64,000 nt of DNA from contig JAVQMD010000001.1 in NCBI GenBank assembly GCA_032595675.1, positions 1,830,640 to 1,894,639 of the forward strand. Direction: 5' to 3'. Each line of letters begins with the position of its first letter. The stretch's first letter is position 1. The notes beneath the pieces are model-generated. The model was not told the DNA's origin and did not search any database. It worked only from the letters and a program-made list of their open reading frames with translations. This stretch comes from Candidatus Electrothrix rattekaaiensis. GTDB taxonomy: Bacteria > Desulfobacterota > Desulfobulbia > Desulfobulbales > Desulfobulbaceae. Shown piece by piece: positions 11,031 to 36,832 of the stretch. The translations under genes were made by a program, and so were the position numbers.

Positions 11031-11049
11031 CTCATCTGGTATGCCCCTG

Positions 11050-11212
11050 CTCATACCCCTCGTATGACTAGGCTCATACGCCCCGTATGACGAGGCTCAT
11101 ACGCTCCGTATGACGAGGCTCATACGGCCCCGTATGACGAGGGGCATACGCTCCGTATGACGAGGCTCATACGGCCCCGTATGACGAGGGGCATACGCTC
11201 CGTATGACGGGG
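11050..11212. repeat. Tandem array of seven small palindromes (23-24 bp units)
   Basis: Seven head-to-tail units follow the pattern CATACG-N2/3-CCGTATG with GAC[GT]AGG linkers. Units two to seven are nearly identical; the first is degenerate. The units alternate between two linker/loop forms (CTCATACGGCCCC and GGCATACGCTCC). The array fills the 382-base gap between the TPR gene and the DUF2254 gene. It is not a CRISPR, because there are no unique spacers. It could be a protein-binding array or a slippage-generated hairpin cluster. Confidence 0.85.
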
Positions 11213-11351
11213 GGCATGTTTCTGAACAAACTTTCCCCAGAAAGAATGCTTGACAGAACAGAACCGGCTCTTTACGATGAGCTGTCATAACTCTTCCCGG
11301 TATTCTCACCCCCTTACCCTACAAGGTGCGAATGAATGAGGCAACCCCGTC

Positions 11352-12898: not shown

Positions 12899-14626
12899 AT
12901 GTTGACACGAATTGTACAGACTATCCTTCTGACAGCGGCAGCCCTTGTTGCCGTATCAGGAACTTCCTCTGCCGTGCAGTACGTCAAAGCCCCGCCTCTT
13001 ACCGAGGCGATCAGTACGCAGGTTCAGGATGTCAAAGGCGGCAAAGCCGTGCAGGTGCCCCTGATTACCTGGGGAGGTGACATCGCCACCATCCTTGCCA
13101 ACGGCAACAGCCGGAACACCGCCGCAGGTTCTCTTTTCGCCAAGCAGAATCTGCAACTCAAGCTCACCCGCATAGATGATTTTAAACAGCAGGTCGAGAC
13201 CTATATGCAGGGCGAAACCCCGTATCTGCGCGGCACCATCGGTATGGTCAATATGGCGGCGGAACTGCTGAACCGTGACCCGCGCACCAAACCGGTTATT
13301 ATCTACCAGATGACCTGGAGCAATGGCGGTGACTGTCTGGTGGTGAAATCAGGCATTAACTCGGCCAAGGATTTAAAGGGAAAAACCATTGCCTTGCAGG
13401 CTTACGGCCCGCATGTGGATTATCTTGCCAAGCTGCTGCGCGATGCCGGGCTGAAGATGTCAGATGTCACCATCAAATGGGTGAAAGACCTGACCGGCAC
13501 AGACAACACCCCTGCCGAAGCCCTGAACGCCAAGGATGTTGATGCGGCTATGGTGATTATCCCGGACGGCCTTATGCTGACCTCCAACGGTTCTGTGGGC
13601 ACCGGCTCAGAAGGCTCGATAAAGGGAGCAAAGATCATGCTCTCCACCAAGAGTGCCAACCGTATTATCGCGGACGTGTATGCGGTGCGCAGTGATTATT
13701 TCGCGGCCCATAAGCAGGAGGTCCAGGGTTTTGTCCATGGTCTTTTCCTGGCGGAACGGGAGCTGAAAGAACTCTTTAAAAGCAAAAAGGCCCGGCTTGC
13801 CGACTATAAGAAGACCGTGACTGCCGCCGCTGATATCCTGCTCGATAGTGCCGCCGCAACTGCGGATACCGAGGCCCTGTACGGGGACTGTGAATATGTG
13901 AGTTTCCTAGGCAATGTGAAATTCTTTACCGATACAAACTGGCCGCGCAATCTGCACCGCCTTACGGACGAAGTGCAAACCGCCTTTATCACCGGTGGCC
14001 TGTTGAGCCGCAAGACCCCTGTCCAAGCGGCCAACTGGGACTACAACGTCTTCCGTAAAGGTTTAACCGGTGTTGATAAGGTTGAGGCCCCCAGATTCAA
14101 CACCGAAGCGGTAGCCCAAGTGGTGGCCCGCAAGCAGAACCTCGGTACCCTAGATGAAGGAGAACTCTTTTCCTTTGAAGTCTTTTTCCAGCCCAACCAG
14201 AACAGCTTTTCAGCGGATCAGTACAGTGATGCCTTTGCCAAGGTTGTTGATCTGGCCTCCACCTACGGCGGCGCGGTTATCACCGTGGAAGGGCATTCCG
14301 ACCCGATGGGTTATCTCCGCAAGAACAAAGAAAAGGCATCAGAGATTGTGCTAACCCGGATAAAACAGGCTGCTAAAAACCTCAGTCTGACCAGGGCCAT
14401 TGCTGTGCGGGATTCCATTATGGACTACAGCGCGGCACAAGGTGTCAATCTTGATCCCAGTCAGTTTACCGTGATAGGACAGGGAATCATGCATCCCCGT
14501 ACCGGTCTGTGCGGCCAGCTGCCCTGTGCTCCCAAAACCAAAGAGGACTGGTTGAGCAATATGCGGGTGGTCTTCCGCATCATCCAGATAGAGGCTGAAG
14601 AAGAAGCCTTTATTCCCTTGGATTAA
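12899..14626 (+). CDS. Periplasmic solute-binding domain fused to OmpA-like peptidoglycan-binding domain (1)
   Basis: A signal peptide (about residues 1-25, ending SSA) is followed by an NMT1/SsuA-like type 2 periplasmic binding fold (about 50-370, with SAKDLKGKTIALQ and DVDAAMVIIPD). An OmpA C-terminal domain follows (about 430-565, FEVFFQPNQNSFS then VEGHSDPMG). The protein should therefore sense or bind a ligand while being tethered to the cell wall rather than feeding a permease. It starts a five-gene same-strand run ending with TelA at 19252. GGAGAG lies upstream of the ATG. The same unusual fusion recurs at 15495. The ligand is unknown; similar proteins are often labelled phosphate-binding/OmpA, which I would not trust. 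Confidence 0.8.
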   Translation: MLTRIVQTILLTAAALVAVSGTSSAVQYVKAPPLTEAISTQVQDVKGGKAVQVPLITWGGDIATILANGNSRNTAAGSLFAKQNLQLKLTRIDDFKQQVETYMQGETPYLRGTIGMVNMAAELLNRDPRTKPVIIYQMTWSNGGDCLVVKSGINSAKDLKGKTIALQAYGPHVDYLAKLLRDAGLKMSDVTIKWVKDLTGTDNTPAEALNAKDVDAAMVIIPDGLMLTSNGSVGTGSEGSIKGAKIMLSTKSANRIIADVYAVRSDYFAAHKQEVQGFVHGLFLAERELKELFKSKKARLADYKKTVTAAADILLDSAAATADTEALYGDCEYVSFLGNVKFFTDTNWPRNLHRLTDEVQTAFITGGLLSRKTPVQAANWDYNVFRKGLTGVDKVEAPRFNTEAVAQVVARKQNLGTLDEGELFSFEVFFQPNQNSFSADQYSDAFAKVVDLASTYGGAVITVEGHSDPMGYLRKNKEKASEIVLTRIKQAAKNLSLTRAIAVRDSIMDYSAAQGVNLDPSQFTVIGQGIMHPRTGLCGQLPCAPKTKEDWLSNMRVVFRIIQIEAEEEAFIPLD

Positions 14627-14638
14627 GGAGGAACAACC

Positions 14639-15463
14639 ATGAAGAAATTCTTTTCTATATTCTCTATATATGCCACCGCCCTTCAGACCCTGATAGCACT
14701 GATGGCACTGAGCGTGGTTCTGAGTGGATGCGGCGAAGATGCTGATCAGCGGAACGCCCCCGCTCCGCAAAAGAAAACAGTTGTTTCCCAACAACAGAAC
14801 CTGCCCTCTCCTCCTGCACAAGCGGCAGAGGCAGGCTGGCCGCCGGCAGCGGACAAGCAGGAGAATATCCTGCCTGCCGATCAATGGACCATGAAGAATT
14901 ATGTGATGATCTTTGACGGCTCAGGCAGTATGGGCGAACAACGCTGTTCCGGCAACACAACAAAAAATGCAGCTGCTCAGGAAGCTGTTGCGGACTGGGC
15001 GCAATCAGTCCCTGCTGACGCGAACCTAGGGCTTGTCGTGTTTGATCAGAAAGGCTTTTCCACCCGCTTACAACTCGGTCAGGGCGAACGGCAGGCATTT
15101 GTTCAGCAGGTGCAGGCGGTCGTGGCAGGTCAAGGTACGCCCTTGACACAGGCTGTGCAGACCGCCTATGATCTTCTGACAGCCCAGGCTAGGAAACAAC
15201 TGGGCTACGGTGAATATCATATGGTGATCGTCACTGACGGGGCTGCCAATCAGCCGGAACGGCTGACCAGAACGATTAATGCGGTGCTGGCCCATTCCCC
15301 GATCCTCATCAGCACCATCGGCTTCTGTATTGCCGATACCCATTCACTCAACCAACCAGGACGAACAATCTATAAGGCGGCTGATAACCCGGAGGCTCTT
15401 CGTCAAGGCCTACAGGATGTGCTGGCTGAATCCGAGTCCTTTGATGATATAACGGAGTTCTGA
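14639..15463 (+). CDS. von Willebrand factor A domain lipoprotein
   Basis: The N-terminal signal ends in a lipobox (VLSGC, Cys31), so the protein is predicted to be lipidated. Residues about 85-270 form a vWA domain with an intact MIDAS start (DGSGSMG near 98) and a VTDG segment downstream. Such domains bind partner proteins through a metal ion. The start has a strong AGGAGG and the gene is only 12 bases after the preceding solute-binding/OmpA fusion, so co-transcription is very likely. Confidence 0.85.
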   Translation: MKKFFSIFSIYATALQTLIALMALSVVLSGCGEDADQRNAPAPQKKTVVSQQQNLPSPPAQAAEAGWPPAADKQENILPADQWTMKNYVMIFDGSGSMGEQRCSGNTTKNAAAQEAVADWAQSVPADANLGLVVFDQKGFSTRLQLGQGERQAFVQQVQAVVAGQGTPLTQAVQTAYDLLTAQARKQLGYGEYHMVIVTDGAANQPERLTRTINAVLAHSPILISTIGFCIADTHSLNQPGRTIYKAADNPEALRQGLQDVLAESESFDDITEF

Positions 15464-15494
15464 TAGCGTATCGGAAACTGACCGAAGGAAGAAT

Positions 15495-17069
15495 ATGAGT
15501 AAAAAAGTAACAGGCGCGTTAATCCTGCTGGTGCTCGGGGCGGGTATCTTGGTCGGCATCAAACTGCTTTTGCCCGGCTTTATTGATGAGCAACAAGTCA
15601 ATACCAGCGATGCCGTCAAAATCAAAGGAAAGGTCAGGCTTGCTCTGGACAACTGGATAGGGTATTTCCCCCTGCGCTCCAATGAGATGAAGACCCTGAT
15701 GCGCCGTGAGGGCTGGAATCTTGTCTGGACAGATGACAAGGCGGATTACCGGGCACGGATGGAGCGGCTCCATAAGGGCGAGATAGACGTTGCTGTGGCC
15801 ACGGTGGATTCCTACCTTCTCAACGGTGCCGAGTTTCATTTCCCGGCTTCCATCGTCGCGGTACTTGACGAGTCCAAAGGAGGTGATGCGATTGTTGCCC
15901 GGAAAAAGCAGGCCGACAGTCTTGACAGCCTGAAAGGCAAAGACGGCCTGAAAATCGCCTTTACCCCGAACAGTCCCAGCCATTACCTGCTCAAGGCGGC
16001 GGCTGATCATTTTAATGTGCCAGAACTGCTGCCGAGCCGAAAGGGCAACAGGATCGAAACTGAGGGTTCCGAAGGCGCGTTAAAGAAGCTGCTGGCAGGC
16101 AAGGCTGATATTGCCGTGCTCTGGGAGCCTGATGTTTCCAGGGCACTTGCGGAGAAAGATATTGTCAAGCTGCTGGGAACAGAGGATACAGCGCAGCTCA
16201 TTGTTGATATCCTGCTGGTGAATCGAAATTTCATACAGGATCAACCCCAAGCGGTGGAAGCCCTGCTCCGTTCTTATTTCAGGGTGCTGAAAAGATACCG
16301 GGACAACCCAGATCTCCTGGAAAAGGATGTGGAGGAGGAAACCGGTCTTCCGACCAAAACGGCGCAAACCATGCTGCACGGCGTGCAATGGGCCTCTCTG
16401 CTGGATAATTGCGAACAATGGTTCGGCATTACCCAAGGCACTGCCTATTCTGGCGGACAGGCCCGGGAAATGATCAGCGACACCATTGAATCGGCGGCAG
16501 CAACCCTGGTGAATGTCGGCGATTTCACCTCCTCCCCGGTCCCGGATCAGAACCCCTATCGGCTGGTGAAAAGTTCCTTTCTCCAAGAATTGTATACCAA
16601 AGGGATAAGCGGGTTCACCAAATCGGGAACCGCTGCCCAAGGGACAGATTCACTGACCGCCTCGTTCCCGCCGCTGGATACTGCGGCCTGGGAAAGGATG
16701 CGGGAAGTGGGCACCCTGAAGATTGAGCCGATTATCTTTCAGCACGGTTCCGCAGAGCTTGATCTGTTTGCTGAAGAGGTGTTGAAAAAAGTTATTGCCC
16801 GCCTAAAACATTATCCGCATTTCAGAGTGGTGGTGAAAGGGCACACCGGTTTGCGCGGAGATCCTGCCCAAAACAAAGCCTTATCGCAGCAGCGGGCTAA
16901 CAGCGTTGCAATTTTATTGCAAAAGAAATTTCATCTTGATCCGAACCGCATCCGGGCAGTGGGATACGGTGCTGACCGTCCTTTGCAGCGGTTACCCGGA
17001 GAATCAAACCGGGCCTATGAACACCGGCTGCTGCGGGTGGAGATTGTCCTTGTTCGTGAGGAGTTCTGA
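15495..17069 (+). CDS. Periplasmic solute-binding domain fused to OmpA-like domain (2)
   Basis: An uncleaved-looking N-terminal helix (residues 6-26) anchors the protein in the inner membrane. A type 2 solute-binding fold follows (about 45-310, RLALDNWIGYFPL, IDVAVATVDSYL, KADIAVLWEPD). A C-terminal OmpA domain (about 410-520) has VVVKGHTG and NRIRAVGYGADRPL. It repeats the architecture of the protein at 12899, but the two are divergent and this one keeps a membrane anchor. Together they could bridge inner membrane and cell wall. It lies 31 bases after the vWA gene and six before the XpaC-like gene. Confidence 0.8.
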   Translation: MSKKVTGALILLVLGAGILVGIKLLLPGFIDEQQVNTSDAVKIKGKVRLALDNWIGYFPLRSNEMKTLMRREGWNLVWTDDKADYRARMERLHKGEIDVAVATVDSYLLNGAEFHFPASIVAVLDESKGGDAIVARKKQADSLDSLKGKDGLKIAFTPNSPSHYLLKAAADHFNVPELLPSRKGNRIETEGSEGALKKLLAGKADIAVLWEPDVSRALAEKDIVKLLGTEDTAQLIVDILLVNRNFIQDQPQAVEALLRSYFRVLKRYRDNPDLLEKDVEEETGLPTKTAQTMLHGVQWASLLDNCEQWFGITQGTAYSGGQAREMISDTIESAAATLVNVGDFTSSPVPDQNPYRLVKSSFLQELYTKGISGFTKSGTAAQGTDSLTASFPPLDTAAWERMREVGTLKIEPIIFQHGSAELDLFAEEVLKKVIARLKHYPHFRVVVKGHTGLRGDPAQNKALSQQRANSVAILLQKKFHLDPNRIRAVGYGADRPLQRLPGESNRAYEHRLLRVEIVLVREEF

Positions 17070-17074
17070 ACGCC

Positions 17075-17950
17075 ATGCCTCTTTCAGGAGATAACACGAC
17101 CGGTAACACGATCACTGCCGGCGAACGGCTGCCAACGCTGGAGGATTTCTCCGGTCGGGCGGTAAAAAAAGCCGTGCGCTCGGAGAGCCTTTTTCATCCG
17201 GTTTCGCTCTACTCATCTTCGCTCGGCCTGCTTTCCGGGCTGGGCTGGTATCTTTTTGACATGTCCGTGCTGGCAGCCGGGATGGTCGGGCTGCTCTGTC
17301 TCGGTGCAGGTATGGCCGTTGTCAATATGTTTTTCCGCCGCGATATCATTGCCCGACACTATCTTGACCGACTCTCGGCCCGCTTTGCCAAGGAACGAGC
17401 CGGACTCCTCCTGACGCTCAGCACTGACCTGGAACAATGCACCCATATCAAAGGAGCAGAACACTATGGCAGACAGGCTCAGCAGCAGTCCGTCTTTATT
17501 AAAGAAAAATACGATAAATTCCGGACAATGCTGGATCAGAAGCTCAAACGCGGTGAGCTGACCTATGCCCGTTTTCTCGGAGCTGCCGAACAGGTCTACC
17601 TGGGCGGACTGGATACCCTACGACAGGTTGTTGTCCTGCTCCAGAGCGTGAGCACGATTGATGCTGATTACATAGCGAAACGTCTTGCTGAACTTGAGCG
17701 AGTTGCGGCCCCGGATCAGGCGGATGAACGGGAATATGCAACCCTGAAAAAACGACTGGAACTGATGGAGGAACAGCTGAGGCAGGTGAACAGCCTACTG
17801 ACCGATAATGAGGAGTCCATGACCATCATGAGTCAGACCATTGCCACGGTCGCGCAGATGCGTACTGGTGGCGATCTGGCCTCTATGGATATGGAAACGG
17901 CTATGGAGAACCTCCAAGAACTTGCTGGCCGTAGCTATCATACCAAGTAA
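17075..17950 (+). CDS. XpaC-like membrane protein, partner of TelA
   Basis: Two hydrophobic segments lie near residues 46-65 and 68-88 (LGLLSGLGWYLFDMSVLAAGMVGLL). Basic residues and a long helical, coiled-coil C-terminal half (about 95-275) follow. The layout and the location directly before telA fit the XpaC (5-bromo-4-chloroindolyl phosphate hydrolysis) family, which usually accompanies TelA. The match is by architecture and context, not by strong motifs. A GAGGAG site lies about a dozen bases upstream of the ATG within the end of the previous gene. Confidence 0.6.
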   Translation: MPLSGDNTTGNTITAGERLPTLEDFSGRAVKKAVRSESLFHPVSLYSSSLGLLSGLGWYLFDMSVLAAGMVGLLCLGAGMAVVNMFFRRDIIARHYLDRLSARFAKERAGLLLTLSTDLEQCTHIKGAEHYGRQAQQQSVFIKEKYDKFRTMLDQKLKRGELTYARFLGAAEQVYLGGLDTLRQVVVLLQSVSTIDADYIAKRLAELERVAAPDQADEREYATLKKRLELMEEQLRQVNSLLTDNEESMTIMSQTIATVAQMRTGGDLASMDMETAMENLQELAGRSYHTK

Positions 17951-18025
17951 AGAAATAAGGAAACGCCCCGCTTGCCGACCGCCGGGGTATACCTAACCGA
18001 TGTTTTTACATAAAGGAGACCTGAG

Positions 18026-19252
18026 ATGGACACCCGGACCGCTACCCATACCACTACAGCACTGACCCTGCCCGCTGCTTCAGACCTAAAAAATGAGCTT
18101 GCGCTTGCTGATCCGCAGGCACTCGCCGTAGCCGAGGGAGAAAACAAAGAAATCGAAGAAGCTGCGGAAAAATTTGTTGTCGCGGTGCTGGCCTTTGATC
18201 CCAATGATCCTGCCCAGCAAAACGCCCGTGATGCCAATATTGCAGCGGTAGAAACCCTGGGCGGAAAGACACAAAAGGAAGCAGCGCACCGCAGTGCCAT
18301 GCTCAAGCAGCCAATCCGTTCCCTAGCTTCCAAAAGCGAGGACGGTGGCGAGGTTGCCCGATCGCTTGTTGAGCTGAACATACAGGTTGAGGAGCTGGAT
18401 CCGGGAAAATTCGATTTTGAGGCAGGTTGGTTTGCTCGTCTCTTAGGCTGGATTCCCGGTATCGGCACGCCGCTGAAAAGGTACTTTCTCAAGTTTGAGC
18501 AGTCAGACACGGTGATTGACGCCATTGTTCGTTCTTTAAAGGAAGGCCAAGCCCAGCTCACCCGTGATAATATAACCCTGGTGCAGGATCAGAAGGCCAT
18601 GCGGGGTTTCACCTTTCGTCTGGAAAAAACAATAAAGCTGGGTATGCGGATTGATGATCGGCTGAACTATGCTTTGGAGCGCGAAGTCGAGCCGGGTGAT
18701 GCCAAGGCGTCGTTTATCCAGGAGGAACTTCTTTTTCCGCTGCGCCAGAGAATTCAGGATCTGCAACAGCAGCTGGCCGTCAACCAGCAGGGTGTCTTGG
18801 CCATTGAGCTGCTCGTTCGTAATAACAAGGAGCTGATTAAAGGCGTTGATCGGGCGATCAACGTGACCGTCAATATGCTCAGTGTGGCTGTCACGGTTGC
18901 TCTGGCCCTGGCAAACCAGAAGATTGTTCTGGAGAAGATTGATGCCATTAATAAGACAACCAATAAGCTGATTGAGGAAAACGCTGCCCGCCTGAAAACC
19001 CAGGGCGCGGCGATCCAGAAGCAGGCTGCCAGCACCCAGCTCAGTATGGAATCCCTGACCAGGGCCTTTGCGGATATTAATGCGGCCTTGGATGATATAT
19101 CCACCTTTCGTAAGGAATCCCTGCCCGTCATGGCTGAAAATATTTTGGAAATGGATCAGATGACCTCTGAGGCGGAAGCTCGGATTCAACAGCAGGAGCA
19201 GGGGAATCAGGCTGCGCCTACCATTGAGCTTGATTTTACCGGGGCTGTTTGA
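18026..19252 (+). CDS. telA: TelA family toxic-anion resistance protein
   Basis: The 408-residue protein is a TelA/KlaA homologue: soluble and almost entirely helical. The family block FxxLLGWIPGIGTPLKRYFxKFEQ sits near residues 137-157, and the central NKELIKGVDRAINVT and ALANQKIVLEKIDAINKTTN segments are present. Family members give tellurite or antimicrobial resistance, though the native role is unclear. An AAGGAG site precedes the ATG. As the last gene of the solute-binding/OmpA, vWA and XpaC-like run, it probably acts with those envelope proteins. A hairpin terminator follows. Confidence 0.88.
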   Translation: MDTRTATHTTTALTLPAASDLKNELALADPQALAVAEGENKEIEEAAEKFVVAVLAFDPNDPAQQNARDANIAAVETLGGKTQKEAAHRSAMLKQPIRSLASKSEDGGEVARSLVELNIQVEELDPGKFDFEAGWFARLLGWIPGIGTPLKRYFLKFEQSDTVIDAIVRSLKEGQAQLTRDNITLVQDQKAMRGFTFRLEKTIKLGMRIDDRLNYALEREVEPGDAKASFIQEELLFPLRQRIQDLQQQLAVNQQGVLAIELLVRNNKELIKGVDRAINVTVNMLSVAVTVALALANQKIVLEKIDAINKTTNKLIEENAARLKTQGAAIQKQAASTQLSMESLTRAFADINAALDDISTFRKESLPVMAENILEMDQMTSEAEARIQQQEQGNQAAPTIELDFTGAV

Positions 19253-19302: not shown

Positions 19303-19327
19303 GGCAGGAAATATTATATTTCCTGCC
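19303..19327 (+). terminator. Hairpin terminator after telA
   Basis: A ten-base-pair stem (GGCAGGAAAT/ATTTCCTGCC) with a five-base loop lies 51 bases after the telA stop and before the next gene. The run of T after it is short, so it may be a weak terminator or a processing hairpin. Confidence 0.6.
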
Positions 19328-19363
19328 TTTCAGAGGTAGTTTTTTCTGCAAGGAGAAGCCGTT

Positions 19364-20341: not shown

Positions 20342-20917
20342 TCACTCGCCGTACCCTTCATAATAATAGGATTGCTCTATCCCTTTAAAAATAATTTCCC
20401 GGTTGTTAATTTTATCCGTTAGGTTTGCTGACAGGAGGATCCTGATTTCCAAATCATTGACCGGACTTCTTTCCATTGCTTGCAAATAAAGTATTTTATC
20501 TGCAAACTGCCAGTTGACTACTTTTTTCAGTCTTTTTTTCAAAATCATATCCAACCATATACGCATAGCTCTTCCACTTCCTTCCATGAAAGGATGGGCG
20601 ATATTCATCTCCACATATTTGGCTATGATTTCTTCGAAGGTTTCTTCTGGCATTTGCTCAATCTTTACTAAAATTTCTTTCAAGTACAAAGAGTTGGCAA
20701 ATCTGAAATTTCCTTTTGCTCTATTGTTTGTGCGTATTTTCCCAGCAAAATCATACAGGTCATTAAAGAGATAATGATGTATTTGTTGCAGGCCTTTTGA
20801 GAGATAATGATGTATTTGTTGCAGGCCTTTTGTTGTACCAATTACAATGTGATCAATATCCCCAGTTTCAAATAAACGATAAGCGTTATTTAAACTTTTT
20901 TTATCAATACGTTTCAT
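20342..20917 (-). CDS. Fic domain protein with altered active-site motif and internal duplication
   Basis: This is a 191-residue Fic protein, a family that usually transfers AMP to target proteins. The core motif reads [12 protein letters not shown] (His108), where the family has HPFxEGNGR; the conserved Asn is Ser114. An 11-residue duplication ([10 protein letters not shown] twice, residues about 30-50) interrupts the otherwise canonical block [23 protein letters not shown]. It arises from a perfect 33-bp tandem repeat in the DNA. Both changes could weaken activity. No antitoxin of the FicA or Phd/YhfG type is adjacent; the gene is convergent with the Rpn gene and lies just upstream of the ABC operon's 3' end. 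Confidence 0.88.
20768..20833. repeat. 33-bp tandem duplication inside fic
   Basis: Two copies of a 33-bp unit (20768-20800 and 20801-20833) differ only at the last base. The length is a multiple of three, so the frame is preserved and 11 residues are added to the Fic protein. This looks like a recent slippage event. Confidence 0.92.
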
Positions 20918-20936: not shown

Positions 20937-21833
20937 TCATCCTGCTTGAGAACTCTCCTCTCTGGTCAAAGTCTGTAACGAATCAGGATGCTTCAGATTG
21001 AACGTATGAGCATGCTGAAGAAAATCAGGATCAAAACCTTCTCTGCGTATGCAATCAATCAGCTCGGTGAATTCCTTAGTCTGTTTCACCGCAGTGCTAC
21101 TCACGGTGGCGGGCGGCTGATAATCCGCCGTGATTTTCGCCCCTCGATTGACATGCCTACCGTTTCCCCGATCATCAACATAATACTGAGACAGAACAAG
21201 AAGTCGGGTTCCGAGAAATGCGGCTTCTTCCAGATCATGGGTGACAAAAAAGACGGTCATCAGTTCCTGCTCCCAGAGTTCCACCAGAAACAGTTGCATA
21301 TCCTCTCTGGTGTCAGGATCAAGAGCACCAAAGGGTTCGTCCATGACCAGAATTTTCGGTTTCATGATGAGGGACTGCCCGATAGCCACCCGTTGCTGCA
21401 TCCCGCCTGACAGCTCGTGGGGATATTTATTGCCATGATCGGCTAGCCGGATCTTCTCCAGCATCGCCCCTGCTTCCGCATAAATCTCTTTGCGTGACAT
21501 CTCCTTTGAACCCGGTCGTCCGCCGAGCCGCAGGCCCAGACTGACGTTATCCAGCACGGTCAGGTGGGGAAAAAGGGAATATTTCTGAAAAACAATCCCC
21601 CGATGGATGTCGGGCGGGCCCACGCTTTGCTGTTCGAGCAGGATTCGGCCCGCTGTGGGCACCTCGGCCCCGATGATCAGCCGCAGCAGGGTTGATTTTC
21701 CGCAACCGCTGGGACCGACCACTGTGCAGAATTCTCCCCTGCTGACCTGGAGATCAATATTATCCAGGATAACCTTGCCGTTATACGCCTTGTACACATC
21801 GATAATCTGGAGAAAACCGGAATCAGAACTCAT
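20937..21833 (-). CDS. ABC transporter ATP-binding protein (nitrate/taurine/urea type)
   Basis: This is the energising subunit of an importer. Walker A is GPSGCGKST near residue 40, the signature is LSGGMQQRVAIGQ near 141, Walker B is ILVMDEPFGALD near 162, and the switch is THDLEEA. The family is SsuB/TauB/NrtD-like. About 70 residues follow the ATPase core and may be regulatory. The ATG overlaps the permease stop by four bases (ATGA), which shows tight coupling. The binding protein and permease lie upstream in the same operon. Confidence 0.92.
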   Translation of the reverse strand: MSSDSGFLQIIDVYKAYNGKVILDNIDLQVSRGEFCTVVGPSGCGKSTLLRLIIGAEVPTAGRILLEQQSVGPPDIHRGIVFQKYSLFPHLTVLDNVSLGLRLGGRPGSKEMSRKEIYAEAGAMLEKIRLADHGNKYPHELSGGMQQRVAIGQSLIMKPKILVMDEPFGALDPDTREDMQLFLVELWEQELMTVFFVTHDLEEAAFLGTRLLVLSQYYVDDRGNGRHVNRGAKITADYQPPATVSSTAVKQTKEFTELIDCIRREGFDPDFLQHAHTFNLKHPDSLQTLTREESSQAG

Positions 21834-22693
21834 TTATTGCCTCCGACGGCAGTATACCAGGGATAAAAAAAGCGCATTATATGACGAAGCAGCCAGTCCA
21901 TCACAAAACCCAGAAAGGTTATCCACAACACATAGGGTAAGATAACATCCATTGCCAGATAGCGGCGCACCAAAAAGATCCGATATCCCAAGCCGCTGCT
22001 GGCCGCAATAGCCTCGGCCGCAATAAGAAAGAGCCAAGCCGAACCCAGGGAAAGCCGAACCGCCTCAAGCAGTCTGGGCATAATCTGGGGCAGAATAATC
22101 CGATAGGCAAGCTGAAACTGCGAGGCACCCAGGGTGACAGCCTTGGTCAGCTGTTCATGGGGGAGTTTATGGACAGCCAGCCGGATATCTCTGGTGATCA
22201 AGGGAAAAATCCCGATAAAAATCAGTACGATCTTTGCCGCTTCATCCACACCAAAGCTGATAAACAGGATAGGCAGCACAGACAGCGGCGGAATCATAGC
22301 GATAAAGGTGATAAACGGGTTCAGGGCAGCATTGATACCCGGAAACAGGCCGATATTGAGACCAAACAGGAGGGCTGTCAGAGCGGCAAGCCCGGTCCCG
22401 ATCAGCAAACGTTTCATACTGGCAATGGTATCGTTCAGCATCAGGTACTTGCCTGTCCGTCGATTCTTCTCAAAGGCCATATGCTTGACCGCAGCGGTCA
22501 TATGAGAAATCCTCGGCAGGAGTTTATCCGCTTCATTCTCTCTATGCCGGATTTCCGAAGCAGTCAGGTAGACAATCAGCAGCACAGCAAAGGGCAGGAC
22601 TGCCAGCACGATGCTGAACGCCTTGCCCGGCCGGGCGTGAATCCCGAAAAAACGGGGCTGTTTTCGTGTCGGTTGTTCCGGTGACTTGTCCAC
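21830..22693 (-). CDS. ABC transporter permease (nitrate/taurine/urea type)
   Basis: This inner-membrane permease has six hydrophobic segments and the cytoplasmic EAA loop (TLGASQFQLAYRIILPQIMPRL near residues 188-207) that docks on the ATPase. It belongs to the SsuC/TauC-like BPD family. The first 30 residues are polar and basic. It overlaps the ATPase gene by four bases and follows the binding-protein gene after a 72-base gap that holds a palindrome. Confidence 0.92.
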   Translation of the reverse strand: MDKSPEQPTRKQPRFFGIHARPGKAFSIVLAVLPFAVLLIVYLTASEIRHRENEADKLLPRISHMTAAVKHMAFEKNRRTGKYLMLNDTIASMKRLLIGTGLAALTALLFGLNIGLFPGINAALNPFITFIAMIPPLSVLPILFISFGVDEAAKIVLIFIGIFPLITRDIRLAVHKLPHEQLTKAVTLGASQFQLAYRIILPQIMPRLLEAVRLSLGSAWLFLIAAEAIAASSGLGYRIFLVRRYLAMDVILPYVLWITFLGFVMDWLLRHIMRFFYPWYTAVGGNK

Positions 22694-22765: not shown

Positions 22766-23815
22766 CTACTGCATATACTTTGCCGTAAAACGGAGTTTGA
22801 TGTTCTTTTTATCGCCCAGCACAGAGCCGTCATCAAAGGCGATACCTACGATATCCACCGAAGGCGCAGACTCGCCGTACAAACCTTTTGCATAAGAAAA
22901 CTGGCGAACCTTCTCCATAGTCTGTTTCGGTTTTGCTGATGCGGTAAAGGCGGCAGCATCCGTAGCCTTGTAAAACATTGCTGTTGTGGCGAGCTGCTGC
23001 TTGAATTCGTCAACCGTGCCACCGGATGCCTCGGCCATAGAGGCAATAGCCTCTTCTTTCTTGGGGCCGTCTGTCTCCAAAATCGCCATAGTTTCGTACC
23101 ATGCACCGGCCAGAGCCTTCTTCAGGGTTTCCGGGGCATCGGTTCGTACAACCATCAGGTCAATAATTTCACCGGGAATATTTGAGGAATCAAAGACCAG
23201 TGCCGATCCGGGTGCCCGCAGGGCCTGCATCAGGGGCGGGTTCCAAGTGACGGCAGCACCTTTGGGATCAGCAGTGAAAAGAGCTGCGATATCCGCATCG
23301 CTGGTATTGATCAGTTTGACATCCTGTTCGCTCATCCCGTTCATATCCAGTGCCCTTGCCAGTAGGTAATGGGACACGGATAGTTCCACCAGCGTGATTG
23401 CCCTGCCTTTCAGGTCTGTTACCTTTGCACCCTTTTTCATGATAATGCCATCGTTGCCGTTGGAAAAATCACCAACAATCAGGGCGGTCGAGTCGATGCC
23501 TCCCACAGCGGGAATGGTCAGAGCATCCATATTGGCCATAGTGCAGGCATCAAATTTCCCTGTGGTATAGAGATTGATAGACTCAATATAATCATTGACC
23601 AAGGTCAACTCAATCTCAACATTATACTTATCCGCCCATTTCTTGAGAATACTGCTCTGCTGGGCATATCCCCAAGGCTCCCAACCAGCGTAATGCGACC
23701 AAGCAACATCAAATTTTTCTTTCTTCTCCGCGGCCTGAAGCGAGGAAATGCAGAAAAGCACTGCAAAAAGGGCAACAGCGGCTATAAGCCGTACGACTGG
23801 TGACTGATGTTTCAT
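22766..23815 (-). CDS. ABC transporter periplasmic binding protein, urea-carboxylase-region type
   Basis: The 349-residue protein has a signal peptide (MKHQ... to LQAAEK, about residues 1-26) and a type 2 solute-binding fold. The blocks GWEPWGYAQQS, NDYIESINLYTTGKFDACTMANMDALTIPA and IVGDFSNGNDGI strongly resemble binding proteins found beside urea carboxylase genes, so urea or a related small compound is a plausible ligand; no carboxylase gene is in the window. The ATG at 23815 is preferred over one 12 bases earlier, because GGAG lies six bases before it and the signal peptide then starts normally. Confidence 0.88.
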   Translation of the reverse strand: MKHQSPVVRLIAAVALFAVLFCISSLQAAEKKEKFDVAWSHYAGWEPWGYAQQSSILKKWADKYNVEIELTLVNDYIESINLYTTGKFDACTMANMDALTIPAVGGIDSTALIVGDFSNGNDGIIMKKGAKVTDLKGRAITLVELSVSHYLLARALDMNGMSEQDVKLINTSDADIAALFTADPKGAAVTWNPPLMQALRAPGSALVFDSSNIPGEIIDLMVVRTDAPETLKKALAGAWYETMAILETDGPKKEEAIASMAEASGGTVDEFKQQLATTAMFYKATDAAAFTASAKPKQTMEKVRQFSYAKGLYGESAPSVDIVGIAFDDGSVLGDKKNIKLRFTAKYMQ

Positions 23816-24116
23816 CGGATTCTCCATAGATTATTTCGCTTGAAAAGCGGCTTTTCCGCCTGTATCATCTCGGCGTTGTTTCACGCTCGCTGTACAAAAG
23901 TACATAAAATATCACCATAACTCCGCCTTGTCAATGGATCGGTCGGAATGGCGAGGCTGTCTTTCGCCTTCTTTACCGTCTAAATTATATATCCTCCCTG
24001 CTCCTGGATGGTTACAGGAGTTATCTGTTGACAATCAAATAATTTCCATGTTATCCATTGGTAAAAAAAATATTATGAAGTAAACGGAAAACAGATTGCG
24101 TTACCCTCAAGAAAAT

Positions 24117-33634: not shown

Positions 33635-33743
33635 GCGGGTGCCTGCTTTCCGATAGAAACGGAAAGTTGATAAAGCCACAGCCGTCGCGAGGCGGTGCCG
33701 GAAAGCCACGGGTCTCCATGGAGGAGATAGCCGGGTTACCTGC
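33635..33743 (+). promoter_or_regulatory. Candidate c-di-GMP-I (GEMM-I) riboswitch
   Basis: The outer helix pairs GCGGGT (33635) with ACCTGC (33738). A first hairpin is CTTTCCG/CGGAAAG. A second hairpin (GCCGTC, GCGA tetraloop, GGCGGT) is followed by GGAAAGCCACGGGTCTCC and GGAGATAGCCGGGTTACC. The last two blocks match the GEMM-I core as seen in Geobacter-type riboswitches (AAAGCCACGGGTCT...AGCCGGGTT), and the GNRA loop is the usual tetraloop that docks into the neighbouring stem. The GCAAACC segment of the classic consensus is not obvious, so it may be a variant class. A strong ribosome-binding site follows at 33764. Confidence 0.6.
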
Positions 33744-34035: not shown

Positions 34036-34953
34036 ATGAGACAAACACAAATATCTAAAAAACTTATATATCTACCAGCTAGATATATGTTGTCCCTAAC
34101 ACTCATTACAGCCCTTTTTTTCTGTACAGAGGTATCAGCTAATGCATCAGCGAAAGACGTCCATGAAATGGCTGATATTTGCATGCAGGCCAATCGTCTC
34201 TTAAAAGATTATGCATTAGTCGGTATGGAAGTCGAATATAATGATCCTGCTCAAAATCTCAAAGAGAACCTAGAGCTTATGGAGAAGGAGCTCAAGGATC
34301 TTGAAGGGCATAAGCAAAATGAAAAAATAGCTGCCGAGATTATTGAAATTGAAAAATCCTGGCATGCCATCAAGCCGGAATTCGAAAAGGCACCGGAAAA
34401 AACAAAAATGCATGATCTCAGAATGATGGTCGAAAAATTCACGGTTCGTTGTGAAGAAATCGCTGAAGACATCTCTAAAGACACTGGCATCAAGGGAGAG
34501 CATGATGTCGTCCTTATAGCCGAGCTGGGCATGGAGTCACAACGACTGGCTGCCCTCTACCTGATGAAGGCATGGGGTGTAACTGACTCTGATTACGAAA
34601 CAGAGGTCAAAGAGGTCGTTGACCAAACCGAGAAGATATACAAAGAGCTTCTTGGAGCTGATGAAAAATTTGTCTCCAAGGAAATAAAAGAAGAACTGGA
34701 AAGGGTTGAAAAGGATTTCATTGCCTTCAGCGTAATGGCAACCAGCACAACAGGTCGTTTTATGCCTGCAGCTGCTGAAAAAATGGCGACAAAAATTTTC
34801 AACGCACTTCGTGACATCCTTAAAAAGGAACAGAAACTGGTTGAGGGAACTGTGTCTGGATATTTTACGCCTATTGCTGATGAAAAAACAGCAGGAGAAA
34901 TCTTTCGAGTAATCACTGGAATTGTACATGTAGAAGGAGAGATCAAATCATGA
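34036..34953 (+). CDS. Secreted helical protein, PilJ N-domain-like (copy A, first gene)
   Basis: A signal peptide (about residues 15-36, ending VSA-NA) leads into an all-helical 270-residue domain with the pattern EMADICMQANRLLKDYALVGMEV..NDPA.NLKENLELME of PilJ-N-like periplasmic four-helix sensors. No transmembrane helix or signalling domain follows. It overlaps the next gene by four bases. A near-identical copy lies at 36011. Its location under a c-di-GMP-I-like leader and near a Pil-Chp cluster suggests a role in surface or ligand sensing, but no function is known. Confidence 0.7.
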   Translation: MRQTQISKKLIYLPARYMLSLTLITALFFCTEVSANASAKDVHEMADICMQANRLLKDYALVGMEVEYNDPAQNLKENLELMEKELKDLEGHKQNEKIAAEIIEIEKSWHAIKPEFEKAPEKTKMHDLRMMVEKFTVRCEEIAEDISKDTGIKGEHDVVLIAELGMESQRLAALYLMKAWGVTDSDYETEVKEVVDQTEKIYKELLGADEKFVSKEIKEELERVEKDFIAFSVMATSTTGRFMPAAAEKMATKIFNALRDILKKEQKLVEGTVSGYFTPIADEKTAGEIFRVITGIVHVEGEIKS

Positions 34954-36010: not shown

Positions 36011-36832
36011 GTGTCGGCAAATGCATCAGCGAAAGACGTCCACGAAATGGCTGATATCTGTATGCAGGCTAACCGTATCTTAAAGGACTATGCTCTGGTC
36101 GGCATGGAGGTGAAATATCATGATCCGGCCAAAGACTTAAAAGAGAATCTTGAGCTTATTGAAAAAGAAATCAAGGATCTTGAAGGGCATAAGCAAAATG
36201 AAAAAATAGCTGCCGAGATTATTGAAATTGAAAAATCCTGGCATGCCATCAAGCCAGAATTTGAGAAGACACCGGATAAAACAAAAATGCATGATCTTCG
36301 AGTGATGATAGAAAAATTCACGGTTCGCTGCGAAGAGGTCGCTGAAGATATTGCCAAAGATACCGGCATTGAGGGAGAGCATAATGTGGTCCTTGTTGCT
36401 GAGCTGGGCATGGAATCGCAGCGTCTGGCCGCACTCTACCTGATGAAAGCTTGGGGCGTGGCTGATCCCAACTATGAGGAAGAAGTCAAAGAGACCGTTG
36501 ACCAAACCGAGAAGATATACAAAGAGCTTCTTGGAGCTGATGAAAAATTTGTCTCCAAGGAAATCAAAGAACAACTTGAAAATGTTGAGAAAGAGTTTAT
36601 CGCCTTCAGCGTTATAGCAACCAGCACAACAGGTCGTTTTATGCCTGCAGCTGCTGAAAAAATGGCGACAAAAATTTTCAACGCACTTCGTGACATCCTT
36701 AAAAAGGAACAGAAACTGGTTGAGGGAACTGTGTCTGGATATTTTACGCCTATTGCTGATGAAAAAACAGCAGGAGAAATCTTTAGAGTACTCACGGGAA
36801 TTGTACATGTAGAAGGAGAGATCAAGTCATGA
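36011..36832 (+). pseudogene. PilJ-N-like secreted protein, copy B, first gene, N-terminus frameshifted
   Basis: From GTG at 36011 the frame is about 90 percent identical in protein to copy A. Its signal peptide is encoded just upstream (LGARYLLTLTAFTTLFFCTEVSA), but the natural ATG at 35917 is one base out of frame with it. A one-base change near the A-rich AAAGAAAACAAAT tract would restore a full-length protein. As written, the gene lacks an in-frame signal peptide. Confidence 0.65.

Follow-up and report, generated by a model that had tools for sequence, protein, structure and literature searches.

A conserved telA operon encoding two solute-binding/OmpA fusion proteins and a vWA-domain protein, and its association with ABC transporter genes

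Operons that combine genes for a PspA/Snf7 protein, an AAA+ ATPase, an ABC transporter and a PBPB-OmpA protein were described by Ravi et al. (2024; PMC11237479), whose passages on them propose a link between membrane remodelling and solute transport and name a band-7/SPFH protein as a PspA partner. TelA, annotated as a toxic-anion resistance protein, occurs in XpaC-TelA pairs of Gram-positive bacteria, among them lmo1966-lmo1967 of Listeria, which is named as one of the LiaSR-regulated genes; according to the sections of a 2026 paper that deal with this pair, a mutant in the telA homologue is more sensitive to nisin and tellurite, and the mechanism of TelA is still called unknown (PMC12791056). 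Here we describe, in a 64,000-nucleotide stretch of the Candidatus Electrothrix rattekaaiensis genome (the window; contig JAVQMD010000001.1, positions 1,830,640 to 1,894,639 of the forward strand), a five-gene operon in which telA follows genes for two proteins that fuse a solute-binding protein (SBP) domain to an OmpA-like domain, for a vWA-domain protein and for a membrane coiled-coil-type protein (CC), and which is accompanied by genes for a NitT/TauT-type ABC importer. We give about an even chance to the reading that these eight genes encode one ABC uptake system, tethered to the wall and served by several receptors, in which a module of the TelA type supports the membrane.

The five genes are all on the + strand between positions 12899 and 19252 of the window, exactly where an initial annotation made from the sequence alone had placed them: SBP1-OmpA (12899-14626), the vWA-domain protein (14639-15463), SBP2-OmpA (15495-17069), CC (17075-17950) and TelA (18026-19252). 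Each is an open reading frame (ORF), assigned by Pfam domains (and, for SBP1, also by conservation) or, for CC, which has no Pfam family above cut-off, by hydropathy. The intergenic gaps are 12, 31, 5 and 75 bases, and a purine-rich stretch precedes each ORF; from the spacing we infer that the five genes form one tight, co-transcribed operon, in agreement with the initial annotation. A terminator-like stem with a T run 3' of telA (19323-19339, + strand) is a consensus match only, of a kind found 16 times in the window against a mean of 12.5 after shuffling, and hence hardly above chance. The ABC transporter genes, absent from the gene list of the initial annotation, begin 1.7 kb downstream on the - strand, past a PD-(D/E)XK transposase-family gene and a Fic-family gene. 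They encode, together, an ATPase with a conserved C-terminal extension (20937-21833), identified by family profiles and by identity to relatives as the orthologue of the ATPase inside their operon; a permease of the NitT/TauT type (21830-22693), identified in the same way; and a periplasmic solute-binding protein, SBP3 (22766-23827), which scores 487.7 bits with the TIGR03427 profile (cut-off 333.9).

Conservation was surveyed by scanning 84,980 species genomes with an SBP1 alignment, which yielded 92 relatives, and 80 loci were kept; five more, from Vibrio plasmids and a scan of the phylum, brought the surveyed loci to 85, many of them in metagenome bins. SBP1 is thus present by construction, and gene labels come from profiles built on these same loci. 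Counts are restricted to the 53 loci in which 8 kb or more follow SBP1; three loci (L004, L005, L007) are related plasmids, and L003, outside the 53, is probably the same contig as L016, the two contigs being equal in length. By record title, the loci come from Desulfobulbaceae and other Deltaproteobacteria, Gamma- and Betaproteobacteria, Acidobacteria, Verrucomicrobiales, Spirochaetales, Nitrospinota and others. Among the 53, vWA is present in 53, SBP2 in 52, CC in 50, TelA in 42, a PspA-like protein in seven, SBP3 in 41, the permease in 43 and the ATPase in 42. The order SBP1-vWA-SBP2-CC-TelA (or PspA-like) on one strand is kept in 49 of the 53 loci, and in 40 of these 49 every gap is below 400 bases, the median of their 160 gaps being 15. 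The linkage of the five genes, for which the initial annotation had proposed such a neighbourhood survey, is therefore far beyond chance.

The survey also ties the ABC genes to the operon. Because 39 of the 49 complete loci also hold SBP3, permease and ATPase, we regard these and the five-gene set as one unit. All three genes lie downstream on the same strand in 24 of the 39 and on both sides of the operon in 12, so that 36 have them on the operon's strand; two loci have them upstream on the other strand and one, that of Candidatus Electrothrix aarhusensis, downstream on the other strand, as in the window. Identities to the latter, a cable bacterium of which the source of the window is probably a relative, are 92-94% for TelA, permease and ATPase (permease 94%, ATPase 93%), and the window's ABC proteins are 48-55% identical to those of two Vibrio plasmids. 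On three Vibrio plasmids the genes form a single run: ATPase, SBP1, vWA, SBP2, a hypothetical protein, TelA, a TIGR03427 SBP and permease. A fourth Vibrio plasmid carries only distant SBP1 and vWA genes. SBP3 is missing locally from 12 of the 53 loci; searching nine of these genomes whole gave a strong copy elsewhere in five, weak matches only in two and none in two. The distant copy adjoins TelA in three of the five genomes and, in one, CC, permease and ATPase; these sets are therefore split. The contention of the initial annotation that the complex serves sensing and not transport is thus unsupported, since in 39 of the 49 complete loci the unit includes a third SBP with its permease and ATPase, and in the window these genes adjoin the five.

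As to the receptors, SBP1 has a hydrophobic, signal-like N-terminus followed by a solute-binding domain of the NitT/TauT type (NMT1 at ~13343-13738; 34.3 bits, Pfam cut-off 20.5) and a C-terminal OmpA-like domain (~14183-14497), whose 22.3 bits fall below the Pfam cut-off of 27.2. In SBP2, an N-terminal transmembrane anchor precedes a solute-binding domain (~15630-16298; Phosphonate-bd/NMT1_2) and an OmpA domain (~16737-16997) that scores 64.3 bits, above the cut-off. These domains bear out the two solute-binding/OmpA fusions of the initial annotation, and its claim that both are tethered to peptidoglycan is supported for the first and doubtful for the second. In the OmpA of A. baumannii, diaminopimelate is bound through Asp271 and Arg286 (PMC12108004). 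Both peptidoglycan-binding residues are kept in SBP1 relatives (D468 in 84 of 84, R499 in 83 of 84). SBP2 relatives all keep the Arg (R467, 68/68) but never the Asp, position 452 being G, S, A or N (Asp 0/68); their N-terminus is hydrophobic in 67 of 68, with a lipobox in none. Because of these kept and lost residues and the N-terminal pattern of SBP2, we consider that SBP1 is probably wall-bound through its OmpA domain, and that SBP2 appears to be anchored in the inner membrane, with an OmpA domain that may have another mode of wall binding or none. Statements on topology (anchors, signals, segments) here and below derive from hydropathy and motif patterns, and the start codons of relatives were picked by a script, which affects counts of N-terminal patterns such as the lipobox.

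The profiles of SBP1, SBP2 and SBP3 align with one another, and all three proteins have the motif S-x-G-x-D in common. It lies at residues 141-146 of SBP1, with S141 in 83, G143 in 83 and D145 in 82 of 84 relatives, and its S, G and D are found in 68 of 68 SBP2 and 49 of 49 SBP3 sequences. Other near-invariant stretches map to where we take this class of receptors to close on its ligand. Since the receptor motifs are near-invariant, the pockets do not look degenerate; degenerate pockets were, beside a lack of conserved linkage, what the initial annotation had named as refuting its idea.

The vWA protein, with a Pfam VWA match at ~14903-15355, has an intact MIDAS (DxSxS...T...D), the residues of which are conserved in nearly all of 75 relatives (D93 in 74, S95 in 75, S97 in 72, T167 in 74, D200 in 72), and two conserved cysteines, C103 and C230 (71/75). 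It was initially described as a lipoprotein; the domain and a lipobox-like start are indeed present in the window, and there the protein is probably periplasmic, but the lipobox pattern is not widespread among the relatives (see below).

Gene 4 encodes N-terminal membrane segment(s) followed by a helical, coiled-coil-type C-terminal part. Two hydrophobic segments are predicted in 42 of 62 CC relatives, one in 13 and three in seven, and the window CC has one strong segment and a weaker neighbour. The label "XpaC-like" given to it initially found no support in family or profile tests: PF10112 (XpaC/Halogen_Hydrol) has no match in the window's own genome or in seven carrier genomes, it is not among the 25 of 88 families listed for 58 CC proteins, and the hhalign probability of CC against seven PF10112 proteins is 3.3%. 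CC nonetheless holds the place that XpaC has in XpaC-TelA pairs, and may be an analogue. It likewise has no profile similarity to the PspA-like protein that takes the place of TelA in some loci.

The identity of TelA is clear (PF05816 at residues 70-388; 236.3 bits, cut-off 30). It is predicted to be all-helical with a long helical hairpin, in a model of medium confidence (mean pLDDT 66.6) whose structure search returned no significant match to a known fold. TelA occurs in nine of 297 genomes of the phylum, seven of them above cut-off, and the TelA sequences from the operon form no clean clade in a rough FastTree tree. In seven of the 53 loci (L078, L081, L082, L084, L085, L086 and L087; record titles Acidobacteria, Holophagae, Sulfidibacter, Poribacteria and KSB1), its slot is filled by the PspA-like protein of ~276 residues, never alongside TelA, and in five of these seven an AAA+ ATPase gene follows the ABC genes. 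The model of the PspA-like protein is also a long helical hairpin, of low confidence (mean pLDDT 64.3). Among its 12 best PDB matches, eight are Vipp1/PspA, CdvB or Asgard ESCRT-III, all of the ESCRT-III superfamily, and none is significant (E >0.006), which gives only a hint of an ESCRT-III-type fold; its best Pfam match, ALIX_LYPXL_bnd, is below cut-off.

TelA is accompanied by receptors and a vWA domain in a second, differently built set as well, which we followed by hand in a small sample and not as a census. It consists of a lipoprotein-like SBP_bac_11-vWA fusion, a membrane-anchored SBP-like protein, XpaC and TelA, all four genes being together in L107, L115 and L116. The anchored protein aligns with the SBP_bac_11 SBP (E 3.9e-14). 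In L109, a short protein that matches no family accompanies the fusion, the anchored SBP and TelA. The Sphaerotilus plasmid L090 encodes TelA, an anchored SBP-like protein and a vWA protein; the last of these aligns with the fusions, yet it has no SBP_bac_11 match of its own. The SBPs of this set belong to another family, with no similarity to SBP2, and no OmpA domain was matched in it, whereas the vWA domains of both sets align. Beside TelA in L115, and on the same strand, are an NMT1-type SBP, a permease and an ABC ATPase, the sole ABC genes seen at a second-set locus. In L113 and L114, from Alphaproteobacteria, a band-7 (SPFH)/GYF_2 protein is encoded downstream of an XpaC-TelA pair, either directly or with one gene in between. 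Two of the seven above-cut-off TelA genomes of the phylum sample carry the OmpA operon and two the SBP-vWA set. Two periplasmic receptors and a vWA domain hence accompany TelA in two differently built systems.

Two candidate leads to the ligand were pursued. The name of TIGR03427 points to urea chemistry, and a urea carboxylase above cut-off was found in one of nine carrier genomes, the window's own being among the eight that lack it. No riboswitch was detected in the 31 of the 85 surveyed loci that were scanned (which gave three tRNAs only), and the single riboswitch in the window, of the c-di-GMP-I type, is 10 kb beyond the ABC genes. Neither lead was retained. A part in anti-phage defence was likewise set aside, PADLOC matches being weak (the best is that of the SBP2 OmpA part with ZorB, E 2.2e-5). 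Regulators are found near the operon at varying distances, as neighbour groups of response regulators (10 loci), a hybrid histidine kinase (four) and a Ser/Thr kinase (four), one member of each having been checked.

If the eight genes form an uptake system, it could work as follows. The three S-x-G-x-D receptors would capture a single small solute, or a small group of related solutes, in the periplasm, SBP1 being held on peptidoglycan via its OmpA domain, SBP2 standing on the inner membrane and reaching towards the wall, and SBP3 acting as the mobile receptor that docks on the permease, with the solute passed between receptors. The vWA protein, its metal site intact, may tie the receptors to one another or to the outer membrane. 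At the cytoplasmic face of the inner membrane, CC would recruit TelA, which may scaffold or polymerise at the membrane and keep the transport site stable, or report on it, during envelope stress. Such an arrangement is in line with the envelope-spanning layout that the initial annotation had proposed. In its favour are the presence of the ABC genes in most complete loci, the strong SBP3 copies next to TelA in split sets, the motif common to the three SBPs, the PspA-like protein in the TelA slot, the link proposed in PMC11237479 and the ABC genes beside TelA in L115. Pairwise distances of TelA and SBP3 also rise together (Spearman 0.72 over the 29 sets with all eight genes full length, a value reached by none of 2000 permutations).

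A number of observations weigh against this reading. In the window, the ABC genes are on the opposite strand behind two unrelated genes, which rules out their co-transcription with the five. Four of the 53 genomes have no SBP3 match or only a weak one, and three more were counted as lacking it from local DNA alone. L006 (which falls ~60 bases short of the 8 kb line) and L061 (flank ~5.6 kb) carry SBP1 and vWA with no SBP2, CC, TelA or ABC genes in the surveyed DNA, as do L047, L056, L057 and L059, which have shorter flanks. Only 31 of 75 vWA proteins have the lipobox pattern, so that these proteins as a group cannot be called lipoproteins. Generic coiled coils are all that the TelA model matches, and TelA and the PspA-like protein have no profile similarity. 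No riboswitch or pathway gene points to a ligand. The permutation test on TelA and SBP3 distances ignores shared ancestry, and three of the 29 sets are close plasmid relatives. Finally, neighbours can be co-inherited without physical contact.

The last point leads to a rival view, in which the locus is a mobile unit that spreads a nutrient ABC transporter and a TelA resistance module jointly although the two have no common function. This would fit the patchy distribution (SBP1 is in two of the 297 genomes of the phylum, one of which is the window's own), the plasmid copies in Vibrio and the lack of a clean clade of operon TelA; yet the gene order and tight spacing are maintained across many phyla, as judged by record titles, and SBP1 and SBP2 are receptors of the same broad class as SBP3, and we hold mere co-inheritance to be improbable. 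Just as improbable, in our judgement, is that the ABC ATPase and permease perform ATP-driven work on the wall or outer membrane through tethered SBP folds that no longer bind solute, by a logic that we take to resemble that of FtsEX. OmpA domains and a vWA protein do seem to us unusual partners for nutrient import, but the almost invariant motifs of all three SBPs do not suggest folds that have lost their ligand, SBP3 is a standard free receptor, and visual inspection of the neighbour groups showed no recognisable peptidoglycan hydrolase, a dedicated search not having been run.

Sensing or a stress response has stronger arguments on its side. Here the receptors and the ABC transporter would sense that a compound, toxic or signalling, is present at the wall and relay this through the vWA protein, SBP2 and CC to a membrane-protecting TelA, import being secondary or part of the sensor. 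The envelope-stress flavour of the initial annotation, which finds support, enters at this point: LiaSR regulation and the nisin and tellurite sensitivity reported for the Listeria pair, the replacement of TelA by a PspA-like protein, with an AAA+ ATPase downstream in five of the seven loci, and the band-7/SPFH protein, of the kind named as a PspA partner in the text of PMC11237479, after the XpaC-TelA pairs of L113 and L114 all speak for it, and response regulators and kinases are encoded nearby. The position of these regulators and kinases relative to the operon is not fixed, however, and most loci retain the whole ABC transporter. We therefore judge sensing to be possible though well short of even, an explanation that keeps real weight. 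The interpretation in the initial annotation is thus, taken overall, partly supported.

Uptake by a wall-tethered, TelA-supported machine, the reading that we favour, can be taken one step further. TelA might be a bacterial counterpart of PspA/ESCRT-III-type membrane-remodelling proteins and form the cytoplasmic component of an uptake machine driven by ATP and anchored to the wall, with periplasmic receptors and vWA, as the second set hints, as its general companions and not a peculiarity of this one operon; this extension is doubtful, and we offer it as a tentative idea. In any case, this widespread operon, in which a PspA-like protein can stand in for TelA, supplies definite candidate partners for TelA in the form of receptors, a wall anchor and all the parts of an ABC transporter. 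Whether TelA stabilises or gates a transport site at the membrane thereby becomes a question that can be tested. If true, our reading would provide a route by which receptors fixed to the wall could serve an importer.

Some further features were recorded among the surveyed loci and in the window. An AAA+ ATPase of ~490 residues is encoded beside the operon upstream of SBP1, mostly on the other strand, in 13 of the 53 loci (L014, L017, L019, L024, L026, L029, L066, L079 and others). On the Vibrio plasmids L004, L005 and L007, the operon has near it a gene for PRTRC system protein C and, upstream of the ATPase gene, one for a conserved protein of ~200 residues. L067, from the draft genome of Candidatus Electrothrix aarhusensis, has SBP1, CC and SBP3 each in two frames, which suggests frameshifts or sequencing errors. 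Copies of operon genes in L013, L022, L047, L052 and L071 are in bins labelled Parcubacteria, Sungbacteria or Niyogibacteria, groups in which no outer membrane is expected, and may be mis-binned. In the window itself, the Fic-family gene (20342-20917) holds a perfect 33-base tandem duplication (20767-20832); a tandem array of ~6.9 copies of a 23-base, palindromic-looking unit is found at 11049-11217, between a TPR gene and a DUF2254 gene; and the c-di-GMP-I riboswitch (33665-33743) precedes two genes that resemble each other (34036-34953 and 36011-36832) and give weak matches of the PilJ type.

How, then, does the locus compare with known systems? The TelA set that we traced as a second type is like the operon in having two SBP domains, a vWA domain, a short membrane protein and TelA (L107, L115, L116), but differs in its SBP family, in the fusion of SBP and vWA, in having no matched OmpA domain and in having ABC genes beside L115 only. 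SBP3 resembles the urea-carboxylase-type receptor of TIGR03427 well above the cut-off of that profile, whereas eight of nine carrier genomes have no above-cut-off urea carboxylase and the 31 scanned loci no riboswitch. Ter stress-response systems, which comprise TelA, the vWA protein TerF and TerD, also bring TelA together with a vWA protein; in the account given in the relevant part of PMC7824862, TerF vWA and TelA form sub-membrane structures, whereas the vWA protein described here has a lipobox-like start and is probably periplasmic. In the Listeria pair, as here, the gene before telA encodes a short protein and the two genes form a putative operon, but CC has no profile similarity to PF10112, and the passages of PMC12791056 on the pair mention no SBP, vWA or ABC partner.

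The closest likeness is to the PspA/Snf7 operons of PMC11237479. Seven loci have a PspA-like protein in the TelA slot, five of them with an AAA+ ATPase downstream, on the same plan, and ABC ATPase, permease and SBP-OmpA protein are found both in the window and in relatives. The differences are that the window and 42 of the 53 relatives have TelA, that the SBP-OmpA fusions number two and are joined by a vWA protein and a further, free SBP, and that neither group of AAA+ ATPases was labelled in window positions 5001-28000, these being present in 13 and five of the 53 relatives. TelA, tellurite and vWA are absent from the main text of that paper (its tables being outside this check), and a search of the open-access literature, subscription papers being outside it, found no published description of a TelA/vWA/SBP-OmpA operon. 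Altogether, our comparison indicates that the TelA/vWA form is a variant of the PspA/AAA+/ABC/SBP-OmpA operon described in 2024, and that this form itself appears to be new.

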